Origin: Cafeteria roenbergensis
Taxonomy: Eukaryota > Sar > Bigyra > Bicosoecida > Cafeteriaceae
DNA length: 64,000 bases
Direction of reading: 5' to 3'
Assembly (NCBI GenBank): GCA_008330645.1
Contig: VLTN01000050.1
Coordinates: 213,864 to 277,863 of the forward strand
In this document: positions 1,906 to 64,000 of the stretch, piece after piece
How the letters are laid out: every line of letters begins with the position of its first letter
Numbering within the stretch: position 1 is the first letter of the stretch
Notes under the pieces: generated by a model
Database searches by the model: none
The model's input: only the letters and a program-made list of their open reading frames with translations
What the model was told of the DNA's origin: nothing
Made by a program: the position numbers and the translations under genes

Positions 1906-4900
1906 ATGGCTTCGACAAAGGCATCATCGTCGGGCGCAGCGGCTGGCGCTGCTGGCCCGGCTGCGGCCCCCACCGTGGAGAGCCTGAAAGAGTGAGAAGA
2001 GCTTGAGCGCAACATGCGCGCAGTGCACGGAACGTCCAACTGAGCCTTGCGCGGAGGCGAGCGGGAAGAGGGAGCGTGGGAGGCCAACGCGCATAGGGCG
2101 CTCGCGCCCGTGCTTCGCTGGGGCGGGCGGGCGGGCGGGGCTTCGGGCGGGTTGCGCACATCGGCCCAGCTCGACTTGAATCAATGACCCGTCTGGCGGC
2201 ACCGCTCTCCGCTCGCCACGCGCCTTGCCCGTGCGCGCAGGGCCGGAGACAAGGCGTACGGGGCCTCGGACTTTGAGTCGGCCTGCGTGTACTACGAGGC
2301 TGTGAGTCAGTGCGCGAAGAACCTGAGAGGAGACCAGCATTCCGCAGCCCGGTCTCGTCTGCACACCCCCTCGCGCAGGCCCGCCCTTTGCCCCCGGGCG
2401 CTCCAGCCAGTCTCGCTCGGTATCACTCCCAACCCGTTTATCGTGTTCGCCGCGTGCCCATCGCAGGCGATCGAAGCCGCTGCGGCGGACGGCAGCGCCG
2501 ATGCTGCGCTCGCGGCGCCCTCGACCAAGGCCGACGCCAAGGACCAGTCCCTCGTCGCGCGCGTGCACAGCAACCTGGCTGCGGCGCGCATCAAGACCGG
2601 CGACGTGGCGGCGGCCCTCGCAAGCGCAACCGAGGCCGTCCGCTTCGCTCCCGCGTTTCCCCGCGCCTACATGCGCGTGGTAATGGCGCTGCGCGAGGCA
2701 GGCGACACCCCCAGCGCCCTCAAGCTTGCCTCTTGGGCCCGCGCCCGCTTCCCGTCCGACCCCTCCTTCGGCAAGCTGGTCCGCGAGCTGAACGACATGG
2801 AGGCCAGCACTCGCACGCTCTCCTTCGCGCTGGACAGCATGCTCGGGCCCTTCTTCGCTATGCAGGACGCGATGGACGCGGGGAAGAGCGCGGGCGAGGC
2901 AAAGGAGGAGTCCTCTGCCCGCGCCATGGCCCTGCAGGCCGCCGCAGCCACAGCCCAGGAGGACAGGCTTGAGAGCGGCGTCGCGCTCTCCGACGCCGCA
3001 GGCGTTCCGGCCGAGCACTCCTCCGTCGCCGTCTCGGCGGCGCACTGGAAGGCCGTTTCCGACCGCCTCGAGGCCCTCGCCGCGTCGCGGGGCCCGGCAC
3101 CGGTCGCCGCTCTGGCCGCCACTGCCGTGCCTGCCGCGGAGTCGGCTGACGACCTCCCCGCCGCGCCCAAGCCCACCGACTCCTCCGTGGGCGTGCCAGC
3201 CCGCCTCGAGCTCTCGGCGCAGCTTCAGGCGCACGCCCGCGCCGCCCTGCGCGCCGGCCGCGTGGCGCTGGCCGCCGAGGCGCTGACCCGCTCCTTGGCC
3301 TGCCTCTCGCTGCGCGGCTCTGTCGAGCCGGCAGAGCGTGCCGCGGCAGAGCGTGCAAAGATCGCCGTGTTCGCCGATAAGGCGCTGGTTGCCCTGCTGG
3401 AGGGTGAGTTCGACGACGCCGACGACCACTGCGAGCGCGTCCTTGCGCGCGTGGCCCGCACCACGATGCAGGAGAGCTTCGTTCTCAAGGGCGACGCCAA
3501 GGCGGACTGGGACGAGGTCATCGAGGCCAGGATGACGGCCCGGGAAGCAGTGGCGCTCGCCGGGGACGGCCGCCTCCGCGCCGCGGTGGCTTCGGCGCGC
3601 AAGGCGGCCAGCCTGCGCCCCAGGGATGCCTGGCTTCGCGGCCTGCTGGCGCGTGTCGAGACGATGCGGGCAGAAAAGGCGGCGGCCAAGGCGGCCAAGG
3701 CCGCGGAGGTCCCGGGAGACGCCGAGGGGGCCGGGGGCGGGTCCGACGACGACGAGGATGAGGACGAGGAGGACGAGGAGGACCAGGAGGAGGCGGCTCT
3801 GCAGCTGGAGGGCAAGTCGAGCGACCCAGACGCGGGCGTGGCCCCGATCAAGGCGGTCCCGGGCAGCCCGCACAACGGCGTGCCCGTGCTCATCCTGGCT
3901 GACACCACCTTCCGGCTGTCGGACCGCGTGGCCGTGGAGTACGCGGGCGCCGCGCTGGCCGCCGCTGGGGGCATCAAGGGGTCCGTGCCTGTGCGCCCGC
4001 GCGTGGTGGACCTCCGCTTCTGGCCCTTCGTCGACTGGGAGCGCGAGCACTTCGTCGTCTTCGTCGTCGCCCCGATGCGCCAGGAGATGGAACAGGAGCG
4101 CTGCATGCCCGGGCTCATGCGCTGGATGGCGTCGGCCCGCCCCGCTTTGGCTCACGTTGCCTACAGCGTCGTGTCCACCGGCCACTCGGGATACTTCCCT
4201 CACTACGAGCAGCCGGCAACCTGGATCGACCACATGATGGAGCGCCTCGGCGCCTTCGCGCTCACCGAGGCGTGCGACGTCGACACCGCCCAGCACCGCA
4301 AGGCCCTCGACGTGACGGCGACCAAGTGGGCCGGGGAGCTCGCCGCCACCGTGCAGGAGGCGCTCAAGGCCGGCCGCACCTCGGCCCGCCCCGTCTCCTT
4401 CGACTACCTCTCCATCCGCCTGGCTGGGGGGCGCCCGGCCCTGCCTGCCTACCGCCTCGCTCCGGCCGACGCCACTGTGGCGTCTTGCTCCATCTTGGGA
4501 GCTGGCAGCGTCGTCGGGAGGGGCGCCGCGGCCGAGGCTGGCGCGGCCACCCCGGCTTCCATCGCCGCTGCCTCTGCCGCCCGCGGCACCGGAGGCGTGG
4601 TCGCCGACATCACCCTGGCCCTGTCGCCGCTGCTGCCGCCCTCGGCACTCGCTCCCGGCGACGCGGTGGGAGTCATCGTGCCCAACGACCCCGCCGAAGT
4701 GGCTGCAGTGCTCGGGGCCATGGGCGTCCCGCCCTCCACCACCGTGCCCCCGCCCCCCTGGGCATTTTCCCAGCCCCGCGCCGCTCCCCCCACCCGCCCC
4801 GGGGCGTGGACCCCTGTCCTTCAGAGCATCACCGCAGTGTCGCCGCTCGCCGTGCTCGACGCTGTTCGCGAGGCAACGGCCGACGCTCCCGCCGACGCCG

Positions 4901-60307: not shown

Positions 60308-60654
60308 AACAATGTTGTGAACCACGCGTGCCCGTCCTGGGATCGGGGCCGCGCTTGCGCTTCGCCCCTCGCCCACTTCTTTCATTGTGTGCGAGTGTGT
60401 GCTCTGCAACACTGCTGCGATTGTCCCCGCCGCTGGCATCCCGCTCACAACGTCGACCCCCGTGCGAAGAAGGTCGCTTCGCGCACACTGCGGCGTGGAA
60501 CTCAGCACGCCGTGGCAGGCCTCGATGTGAGTGAGACACTCTTACACCTTGAAGGCATCTTAACGGAACGACGTCTGCGAAATCACTCTTGCGCGCTGCA
60601 ACTCCACTCAGCAACCACGCCGCCGAACCTGGTGAGACGCCGACCATCGAGTGC
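60308..60654. other. convergent spacer, no gene seen
   Basis: 347 bp of lower GC between the PG-rich repeat gene and the BiP stop codon. No gene was seen. Confidence 0.6.
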
Positions 60655-62553
60655 TCAGAGCTCCTCGTGGTCGAAGTCCTCGTCATCCTCGCCCTGGGCG
60701 CCTCCGGCATCGCCGCCAGTCGAGGCGTACACCTTCTTGATGATCGGGTTGGCCACCTCCTCGACCTCCTTGCGCTTGGCCTCGAACTCGTCCTTCTCGG
60801 CCTCCTGGTTCTCGTCGAGCCAGTCCAGGGCCTCCTGCACCGCGGTCTCGAGGCCTCCTTGTCCTCCTCGTCCACCTTGCCGGCGATGCCCTTCTCCTCG
60901 TCCTCGATCTGGTTCTTCAGGCTGTAGCAGTACGACTCGAGGGCGTTGCGAGAGTCGATGCGCTCCTTGGTCTTCTTGTCGTCCTCGGCGAACTCCTCGG
61001 CCTCGCGCACCATCCGGTCGATCTCGTCCTCGCTCAGGCGGCCCTTCTCGGCCGTGATGGTGATCTTCTCGCTCTTGCCGGTGCCCTTGTCCTCGGCGCT
61101 CACCTGCAGGATGCCGTTGGCGTCGATCTCGAAGGTGACCTCGATCTGAGGCGTGCCGCGGGGAGCGGGGGGGATGCCGGTGAGCTCGAACTTGCCAAGG
61201 ATGTGGTTGTCCTTGGTCATGGGGCGGTCGCCTTGAAAGACCTGGATGAGAACGGCGGGCTGGTTGTCCCGGTTGGTGGAGAAGGTCTGGGACTTCTTGG
61301 TGGGGATGGCGGAGTTGCGGTTGATGAGCTTGGTCATCACACCGCCGACGGTCTCGATGCCGAGCGACAGCGGGGCAACGTCACAAATCAGAATGTCCTC
61401 GGCCCAGTCCCTTCCCTCGTCGGAGAGGATGCCGCCCTGCACAGCCGCGCCAAAGGCCACGGCCTCGTCCGGGTTGATGCCGCTGTTGGGCTCCTTGCCG
61501 TTGAAGAAGTCGCGGAGCAGCTGCTGCACCTTGGGGATGCGAGTGGAGCCGCCGACCAGCACGACCTCGTCGAGCTCGCCCTTCTTCAGCCCAGCGTCCT
61601 CGAGAACCTTGCTCACGGGGGTCAGCGTCTTCTTGAACAGGTCCAGGTTCAGCTTCTCGAAGCGGGCGCGGGTCAGGGTCTCGCTGAAGTCGATGCCGTC
61701 GAAGAGGGCCTCCACCTCGAGGCGGGCGGACGGCTGGGACGAGAGCGTGCGCTTGACGCGCTCCACCTCGCGGCGGAGCTTCTGCTTGGCGCGCGAGTCG
61801 CCGGACATGTCGGTCTTGTACTTCTTGTTGAACTCGCGCATGAAGTACTTCATGACGCGCTGGTCGAAGTCCTCGCCGCCAAGATGCGTGTCGCCGTTGG
61901 TGGCCAGCACCTCGAAGACGCCGTTGTCGATGGTGAGAGCGGTCACATCGAAGGTGCCGCCTCCGAGATCGAACACCAGGATGTTCTTCTCGCCGCCACG
62001 CTTGTCCAGGCCGTACGCGATGGCAGCGGCCGTGGGCTCGTTGATGATGCGGCGCACCGTCATGCCGGAGATGGTGCCGGCATCCTTGGTGGCCTGGCGC
62101 TGGGCGTCGTTGAAGTAGGCGGGCACAGTCACGACGGCGTTCTGCACGGACTTGCCGAGGAAGGTCTCCGCCGTCTCGCGCATCTTGCCGAGCACCATGG
62201 CCGAGATCTCCTCGGGGGCGACTGCTTGCGCTCGCCTGCCGACCTCCACGTCGACGTACGGGCGGCCGGCCTGGACACGACCTTGTACGGCCACAGCTTC
62301 ATGTCAGCCTGCACGGTCTTGTCCGTGAACTTGCGGCCGATCATGCGCTTCACGTCGAAGACGGTGTTGGACGGGTTGAGCGTCGCCTGGTTCTTGGCGG
62401 CGTCACCGACAAGGCGCTCGCCGTCGGCCCAGGCCACGTAGGACGGGGTGATGCGGTTGCCCTGGTCGTTGGGGATGATCTCCACGCGGCCGTTCTTGTA
62501 CACGCCCACGCAGGAGTAGGTGGTGCCAAGATCGATGCCGATGGTGGTGCCGA
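60655..62553 (-). CDS. ER Hsp70 chaperone BiP, first exon unresolved, two single-base frameshifts
   Basis: ER-lumenal Hsp70, ATP-dependent folding chaperone. The exon visible from 62553 begins at a CGCAG acceptor with [19 protein letters not shown] and contains the nucleotide-binding signatures [11 protein letters not shown] and [16 protein letters not shown]. The substrate domain starts [19 protein letters not shown], and the lid ends in [11 protein letters not shown]-type wording ([20 protein letters not shown]) and the HEEL end separate it from cytosolic (EEVD) and mitochondrial Hsp70. Two breaks are visible: near 62,265 (after LWPYKVVS) and near 60,855 (after DEEDKEA). Each is explained by one missing base in a short homopolymer, and reading continues perfectly in the next frame. 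No in-frame ATG with a signal peptide precedes the exon. Family and ER location are secure; whether the frameshifts are real is open. Confidence 0.88.
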
Positions 62554-62905
62554 CTGCGAGCGTTCGTTGCAAGAGGCGGGCGGGCAAGCGACAAAGCCGA
62601 GGCAGCGCCAGTCAGTTGGACCTCAATTGCTTGGCGCCAAGCTCGCTTCAACCAATGGCACCGAGCCGAGGTTGACCCGTGCCTGCGGGCTGGGCCCGGG
62701 CTCGAGCCGATGCGACGGCGAAATGAAGACTTGTAGCCTCCATGGTCTTCAAGTGCTCAACTCACAAGTCTCCTGGCCAGCAGCCAAGCACGCACAGCCT
62801 GCGCATGCGGCAGTGCGCAGGGCCGTGAGGAGCACAGTAGGTCGCGCAAAGCGTGCTGTGAGAGCTCATGGCCTCAAGTGGCGCAGTGCAGGTGACCCCC
62901 CCGAA
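62554..62905. other. region expected to hold BiP intron 1, exon 1 and promoter
   Basis: GC-rich host sequence between BiP exon 2 and the AT-rich element. On the minus strand, short ATG frames exist (ATG at about 62,743, 62,806 and 62,872), and GT sites at about 62,765 and 62,661 could act as donors. None gives a convincing signal peptide joined in phase to the exon at 62553. Confidence 0.4.
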
Positions 62906-62906
62906 G

Positions 62907-62926
62907 AATGGAAATGAATTTCCATT
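62907..62926. repeat. inverted repeat at the AT-rich element edge
   Basis: AATGGAAA and TTTCCATT form a perfect 8-bp stem around a 4-base TGAA loop, exactly where composition changes. Confidence 0.85.
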
Positions 62927-62932
62927 TCTTCA

Positions 62933-62953
62933 ATAACCGCCGACGGCGGTTAT
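62933..62953. repeat. perfect 9-bp palindrome at the AT-rich element edge
   Basis: ATAACCGCC and GGCGGTTAT are perfect reverse complements separated by GAC. It lies six bases inside the previous inverted repeat and may belong to the element terminus or its insertion site. Confidence 0.88.
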
Positions 62954-63240
62954 ATCCCCTTACGGACACACCTAGGGGCTTTTATCTAACGGGTCATCCA
63001 TCAAACGGGTTATCCACCACAGCCTCCCCTTTTATGATTCCCCTTTATATATTGACCCATGACGACACCGAGGACACCCCAAGACACCATAAATTTTAGG
63101 TGTCCCCACCCCATAAAATCATATATTGAAAAAATAAATTAATTTTGTGATGGTTTCCCTTCTAAAAATCCCCGTCAAATTTAAAACCATCTAATATTTT
63201 ATACCCCTATAGACAAAAGGACACTGGGGACACTAAAAAA

Positions 63241-63266
63241 TATAATATAATTTAATTTATATTATA
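63241..63266. repeat. AT-only hairpin
   Basis: TATAATATAA and TTATATTATA are perfect reverse complements with a TTTAAT loop, inside the non-coding end of the element. Confidence 0.8.
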
Positions 63267-63459
63267 ATATAGAAAAAAGTTTTTAGGGGTGTCCTGTCCT
63301 GTCCGTCCTGTCCCCACCCTGGTCTCCATCATGTGAGAGTGCGAAGCGATAATAAAAATTAAAGCTTCAGTTTTAATTTATCCTTTTTCAACACTGTACG
63401 GTTCTTAAAGTTATGGCTCCACAAATCTTACCACAATAATTACAAATTTTAATTAAATC

Positions 63460-63514
63460 TCTAGGATAAAATTAAAAAATGGGTTAAAGAAAAAAAAAAC
63501 TATAGTATTATATA
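63460..63514 (+). promoter_or_regulatory. possible promoter of the AT-rich element gene
   Basis: A TCTA tetranucleotide at 63460-63463 in AT-only surroundings lies 52 bases upstream of the first ATG, followed by a poly-A run and TATA-like sequence. TCTA within AT-rich flanks is the motif reported for mavirus and CroV late genes. Chance occurrence is likely enough that this is tentative. Confidence 0.25.
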
Positions 63515-64000
63515 ATGAACTTTAAAAATTTAATGTCTTTAAAAGATATGCTCACCATACACGAAGATGCCGCCGACTCTGATAGAATAGGTACCATCAT
63601 CTCAAACGCTTTAAAAATGGAATTAATTATTGTAGAGGGTAAATTATACAAGCTCAACGAGACAATGTGTTATGATCCGCTAACTAAATCATCTGATGAT
63701 ACTTTAACAGGGGCTATTACTAATATTTATCTCAAAGCTTTGGAAATTAACAAATACGGAACTACAAACCTTAAAACTAAAGCTTATAGAAGGAAACCCA
63801 AAATAAAACACCTGACCAAATTATTAAAAGCCTTCAAAATGATTTTAAATAATACTTTTATAAAACGGAACATTTCAAGCATAAGAAGCAACTTAACATA
63901 TGATATAACATTTAACGATGACCCAGACGGAATCCATTTCCAAAACGGAAGATTTAATTTACTAAATAATACACTTGAAGAGCGAACTAAACATGCTTTA
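63515..64000 (+). CDS. putative D5-like primase-helicase, N-terminal part (runs off window)
   Basis: Open from the ATG at 63515 to the window end (162 codons, no stop). Codons are strongly AT-biased, unlike every other gene here. The protein is Lys/Asn/Ile-rich and mostly helical. Its last visible part, DPDGIHFQNGRFNLLNNTLE, resembles the short beta segment (asparagine-glycine then F-[ND]-L) that opens the D5_N domain ahead of the SF3 helicase in viral primase-helicases. In mavirus-type elements such a gene lies next to a terminal repeat, which fits this position. The Walker motifs would be beyond the window, so the assignment rests on a short motif plus context. Confidence 0.5.
   Translation, partial: MNFKNLMSLKDMLTIHEDAADSDRIGTIISNALKMELIIVEGKLYKLNETMCYDPLTKSSDDTLTGAITNIYLKALEINKYGTTNLKTKAYRRKPKIKHLTKLLKAFKMILNNTFIKRNISSIRSNLTYDITFNDDPDGIHFQNGRFNLLNNTLEERTKHAL

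Follow-up and report, generated by a model that had tools for sequence, protein, structure and literature searches.

A 64,000-nucleotide stretch of protist DNA (here called the window; positions 213864-277863 of contig C50, GenBank VLTN01000050.1) is GC-rich until it turns abruptly AT-rich about 1.1 kb before its right-hand end. The question raised by this locus is whether the AT-rich end is the edge of an integrated virus-like element and, if so, of what kind. The initial annotation, made from the letters alone, took it for the edge of an endogenous mavirus-like element (EMALE). The analyses described here make it almost certain that this is so: positions 62896-64000 hold the primase end of a mavirus-type virophage that has integrated into the genome of Cafeteria burkhardae strain BVI, whose published assembly the host genome fits, and that belongs to EMALE type 4.

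Boundary, terminal repeat, and tip of the AT-rich stretch

The GC content was 0.712 over positions 1-62895 and 0.334 over 62896-64000, and the minimum found in 248 1-kb windows of the host part was 0.634. When GC content was used alone, the best change point was 63029 and the second best was 62903; the displacement to 63029 is due to the first 200 bases of the element, which are 48% GC. The junction was fixed at 62895/62896 by comparison with an unoccupied site on contig C154. The abrupt change of composition that had been noticed near 62,900 was therefore borne out, with the boundary 10 bases to the left of the start originally given. All 1101 query bases of the AT-rich stretch were matched at 97-99% in five further places of the 36.3-Mb genome. 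On the basis of these copies and of the contig end, the segment 62896-64000 (forward strand) was assigned as the left, or primase, end of a type-4 EMALE. Contig C50 terminates at 277863, which is position 64000 of the window, and the right edge is therefore the end of the assembly and not that of the element. The element that the initial annotation saw at the end of the window is real, but it stops at 64000 only because the contig does. A search of Rfam over 62700-64000 produced no match.

What had been described as a repeat-rich non-coding end was identified, by its matches to element ends elsewhere in the genome, as a terminal inverted repeat of about 615-619 bp (62896-63514). The first ~615 bases were found at 12 other tips in both orientations, including both ends of a complete element on contig C2 (C2:456071-476647), from which their nature as a terminal inverted repeat follows. 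A low-GC block bounded by terminal inverted repeats within high-GC host DNA, as expected of an EMALE, is present. The two terminal repeats of the insertion, one at the end of C50 and the other on contig C16, agree at 614 positions, with a single mismatch and 9 gap positions; such near-identity suggests that the insertion is recent or that the repeats are kept alike.

The pattern at the start of the element, CCCCCGAAGAATG, occurred at 20 sites in the genome, every one of them at a matched repeat end, while the reversed control gave 0. These 20 tips form two repeat classes with 13 and 7 members; 17 carry one of two exact sequences and the other 3 have small indels. One tip per class, with one of the two exact sequences, was folded. 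In the window's class, the tip (62903-62955) forms a pair of hairpins (z -7.1, equalled by none of 200 shuffles), the first of 29 nt (62903-62931) and the second with perfect 9-bp arms and a 3-nt loop (62933-62953). The tip of the other class (L037 84-142) also folded as two adjacent hairpins (z -8.0, 0 of 200 shuffles as good). The first stem is kept in both classes, with a G-C pair in the window's class replaced by an A-T pair in the other, a compensatory change that counts as one covariation since just two classes were compared. The second stem is identical between the classes and its loop differs. Genome-wide, the palindrome pattern of the second hairpin was found at 20 sites, 19 of which are repeat tips (19 of the 20 tips), and the reversed pattern at 0. 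The remaining palindrome of this type, at G000:C15:273457-273473, lies away from every listed element tip.

We tentatively propose that the paired hairpins might form a structured end recognized by the replication or integration proteins of the element, shared though the rest of the repeat reportedly changes with the primase version; we consider this possible, with the balance somewhat against it. In the available passages of the literature on hairpins or palindromes with mavirus, a set outside PMC8547959 and PMC10945749, no such virophage ends were described.

The insertion site and its unoccupied copy

The host flank of the window was also found on contigs C154 and C16. Contig C154 runs through the site without an element (...GCAGTGCAGGTGAGACTTTT...). 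At the C50 junction the sequence reads ...GCAGTGCAGGTGA, then seven Cs and then the element, and at the C16 junction the end of the element, with nine Gs, is followed by TGAGACTTTT.... On C154, the last 5 bases of the C50 flank are also the first 5 of the C16 flank (positions 4812-4816), which identifies GGTGA as the target-site duplication, with its left copy at 62891-62895 and its right copy directly after the end of the element on C16. The length of the duplication is given as 3-5 bp, at least TGA, because two of the bases merge with the homopolymer at the start of the element (a C run of 7 on C50 and 9 on C16). A short target-site duplication is a feature of EMALEs, and with it both of the terminal signatures that the initial annotation had suggested looking for, the inverted repeat and the duplication, were found. 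We concluded that C50 and C16 probably carry the two ends of one insertion. We infer this from the common insertion site, because about 3.1 kb between the two contigs is unassembled.

The gene next to the junction (60655-62587, reverse strand) encodes a BiP-type, endoplasmic reticulum (ER) Hsp70 and is one of a tandem pair. The best PDB matches of its product were to the ER chaperone BiP/GRP78, and its C-terminus, found in another frame, is HEEL, a terminus of the ER-retention kind. Both features speak for BiP and against a cytosolic Hsp70 with a very short first exon, a reading that was considered and dropped. The element was inserted about 340 bases upstream of the first recognizable BiP coding segment, and a near-identical second copy lies across the element, on C16. 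The tandem copies (window 60636-62591; C154:1894-3852; C16:24640-25532) are 98% alike over about 2.0 kb, and this likeness breaks off sharply a short way upstream of where the coding sequence begins, similar to what gene conversion leaves. On C50, the BiP frame is broken near 60860 and again somewhere between about 62130 and 62300; on C154 it is also broken, at other places.

C154 is probably the unoccupied allele, in which case the element would be on one of two homologous chromosomes. All 13.4 kb of this contig are collinear with the flanks, 8.57 kb on the left at 98.9-99.4% and 4.8 kb on the right at 98.0-98.6%, and the organism appears to be diploid with high heterozygosity (PMC6972860). 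C154 could also be a paralogous array located elsewhere, and it would then say nothing about whether the homologous chromosome lacks the element. A tandem BiP pair with copies so alike could mislead an assembler, and the published assembly is described as purged of redundant allelic contigs (same paper), a step for which an allelic C154 would have qualified. C154 may have escaped since its match is split between two contigs. We regard a paralogous origin as unlikely in view of the collinear alignment of the entire contig to both sides of the insertion at 98.0-99.4% and of the reported diploidy.

Gene content of the element and its relatives

The longest open reading frame (ORF) on the AT side (63515-64000, forward strand) encodes 162 amino acids and is open at the contig end; the remaining AT-side ORFs have 71 amino acids or fewer. 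From the ORF list and the sister copies, its product is, at the sequence level, the first quarter of a primase-helicase of about 651 amino acids. The initial annotation had noted a resemblance to the N-terminal part of a D5-type primase-helicase. That it is a primase was supported by the full-length copy on C2 and by a match to DNA primase in PHROGs (0.0025), but the match to D5_N was below the cut-off (E 0.05, 14.3 bits versus 22.4) and is suggestive only; the 162-residue piece alone passes no curated family cut-off. The 651-residue C2 copy matched DUF5906 just above the cut-off (27.9 versus 27.6) and a P4-family primase C-terminal model at 4e-13, which is below the cut-off of that model. Three proteins matched the C2 primase in a protein search, one 98% identical (ENA) and two remote, one of which matches D5_N.

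By position, 125 of the 162 residues agree with the C2 copy. The 37 that differ are confined to residues 51-52, 70-102 (where one position does match), and 160-162, three blocks that look like local frame changes. The ORF is full-length on C2 (651 amino acids) and C53 (650) and ends early on C150 (at 325) and C96 (at 249); in the fifth copy, on C102, the search word for the ORF start was not found. Residual base errors in selected EMALEs were found by Sanger sequencing in a previous study (PMC8547959), and such errors in the assembly are likelier than decay as the cause of the frame breaks in the primase and BiP genes.

The sister on C2 is a complete AT-rich element of 20.6 kb with the terminal repeat at both ends. 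Its ORFs include the 651-residue primase-helicase, a retrovirus-type (rve) integrase, a P-loop ORF, a major capsid protein (MCP), an S74 protein, and two FNIP-repeat proteins. The integrase ORF (L019:8878-9957), near the primase end, matched rve above the cut-off and a chromodomain just below it. In the window's element, the integrase gene would fall within the unassembled stretch, so that integrase homology comes from the C2 sister. The MCP matched the Pfam V20 family above the cut-off, and the ORF in the place of the ATPase had P-loop matches below the cut-offs. No Pfam match was obtained for the C2 ORFs in the places of the protease, penton, and GIY-YIG endonuclease. The 615-residue ORF in the place of the polymerase had no match in Pfam or NCBIfam and a chance-level one in PDB; we presume it to be a polymerase from motifs and its place only. 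The order of the ORFs fits MV14-ATPase-PRO-PEN-MCP, with MV14 and the protease named by place only. The C-terminal piece of the lipase is a separate ORF of 84 amino acids. With this separate lipase piece and its two FNIP genes, the C2 element fits the type-4 EMALE BVIc02, for which two FNIP genes and a frame-shifted lipase were published (PMC10945749).

Taking the C2 sister as reference, C50 ends at element coordinate 1099 and the other part, C16:1-22634, begins at about 4242. C16 holds a fragment of the polymerase ORF, a penton, an MCP, and an FNIP protein, as well as a GIY-YIG endonuclease and a lipase, both above the Pfam cut-off; the P-loop match of its ATPase ORF was below the cut-off. 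The MCP matched the Pfam V20 family and, over its full length, PDB 6g45 (1,049 bits), and the penton matched PDB 6g41, also over its full length (671 bits); we take both structures to be mavirus proteins. The mavirus-type MCP and penton that characterize EMALEs are in this way present on the C16 half, outside the window.

C16 also carries a GC-rich insert of about 6 kb (L032 about 5000 to L033 about 1300) with reverse-transcriptase and tyrosine-recombinase matches below the Pfam cut-off (E about 5e-4), which was taken to be Ngaro-like because the literature describes such inserts in EMALEs. A solo copy of the Ngaro-like repeat was found inside the S74 gene (L025 138-392), and this fits the solo Ngaro repeat published for BVI_016 (PMC8547959).

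The identity to C2 was 98.8% for the left part on C50, 94.8% for C16 up to coordinate 6672, and 99.2% for the right repeat. The C2 and C16 MCPs are only 37% identical, though the left parts (95-99%) and the right repeat are alike. This suggests a mosaic in which the capsid block was exchanged, a phenomenon that may be already known, as variable regions and MCPs were reported within type 4 (PMC10945749).

The genes that the initial annotation had proposed to search for past the contig end were recovered in part. The rve integrase (in the C2 sister), the MCP, and the penton were identified by homology, and with them virophage genes proved to be present; the ATPase, polymerase, and protease had no such support, the first showing P-loop matches below the cut-off only, the second being named by motif, place, and gene order, and the third by place and gene order. 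Could the element be a Maverick/Polinton or a Polinton-like virus instead? Like Polintons, it has an integrase, terminal repeats, a short target duplication, and probably a protein-primed polymerase (PMC12747079, PMC8547959), and EMALE type 02 was reported to have Polinton-like capsid genes (PMC8547959). Both MCPs, from C2 and from C16, match however the V20 virophage capsid family, and the FNIP genes and the size of the element fit EMALE04. The 1,049- and 671-bit matches of the C16 MCP and penton to chains that we take to be those of mavirus rule out a Polinton, provided that C16 is part of the same element as the window, and we consider such an identity very improbable. Another reading of the abrupt change near a contig end, that the assembler had fused contaminant or organelle sequence to the host contig, was dismissed as refuted by the presence of 20 such tips in the genome, several within long host contigs such as C2 (1.35 Mb), by the target-site duplication, and by the publication of such elements as integrated. 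Together, the terminal repeat, the target-site duplication, the sister element, and the capsid homology on C16 upheld the assignment to an endogenous mavirus-like element.

Proposed history and comparison with known systems

The element would have been inserted into the spacer of the tandem BiP pair, presumably by its own retrovirus-type integrase and most likely on one of two homologous chromosomes, with duplication of 3-5 bp. Its replication genes would lie at the window end, with the capsid genes nearer the opposite end, on C16, where it was probably hit later by a Ngaro-like retrotransposon. By analogy with published work on the same element type, it may stay dormant until the cell is infected by a giant virus like CroV; late transcription of the giant virus would then activate the virophage genes, and the resulting particles would reduce the spread of the giant virus. 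The paired tip hairpins could help to start replication or be recognized by the integrase, a guess that is less supported than the other steps.

The class, its reactivation by CroV, and its protective effect are already known (PMC8547959, PMC10945749). These papers, in the parts available, report 138 EMALEs in four strains, including 16 type-4 copies in BVI (14 of them partial), attribute partial copies at contig ends to the assembly, and describe type 4 as the only type reactivated by CroV, which is inhibited; the first of them gives type 4 as the type that contains mavirus. Those same parts contained neither the unoccupied allele upstream of a BiP gene nor the paired tip hairpins. The element is an ordinary member of a published class, recognizable from 1.1 kb of sequence. 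The blind reading of the raw sequence was confirmed in that a class with a reported antiviral effect was recognized from so short a piece. The gain for the specialist is small: an insertion near a gene for an ER chaperone, resolved at both ends and with its unoccupied site, and a terminus that is a candidate for a structured end in mavirus-type elements. Neither the C2 primase nor the C16 MCP had a relative in scans of IMG/VR, from which entries for the same or a closely similar genome may have been excluded.

With EMALE type 4 as published (PMC8547959, PMC10945749, in part), the element shares the host, low GC, gene set, FNIP genes, and Ngaro insertions, its repeat length is within the published 0.2-2.3 kb, and its duplication is within the published range. 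It differs in that the window's copy is split over C50 and C16, and in nothing else that is essential; this copy is presumably among the 14 reported as partial. Compared with mavirus strain Spezl, the MCP and penton on C16 closely match the chains assumed to be from mavirus, the comparison having covered these structure chains; the present element is a relative that differs in being integrated, in the sequence of its MCP, and in the Ngaro-like insert on C16. With Maverick/Polinton elements it has in common the integrase, the probable polymerase, the terminal repeats, and the short target duplication, but the element type found in the window is distinguished from them by virophage-type capsid proteins and a Mavirus-type gene set.
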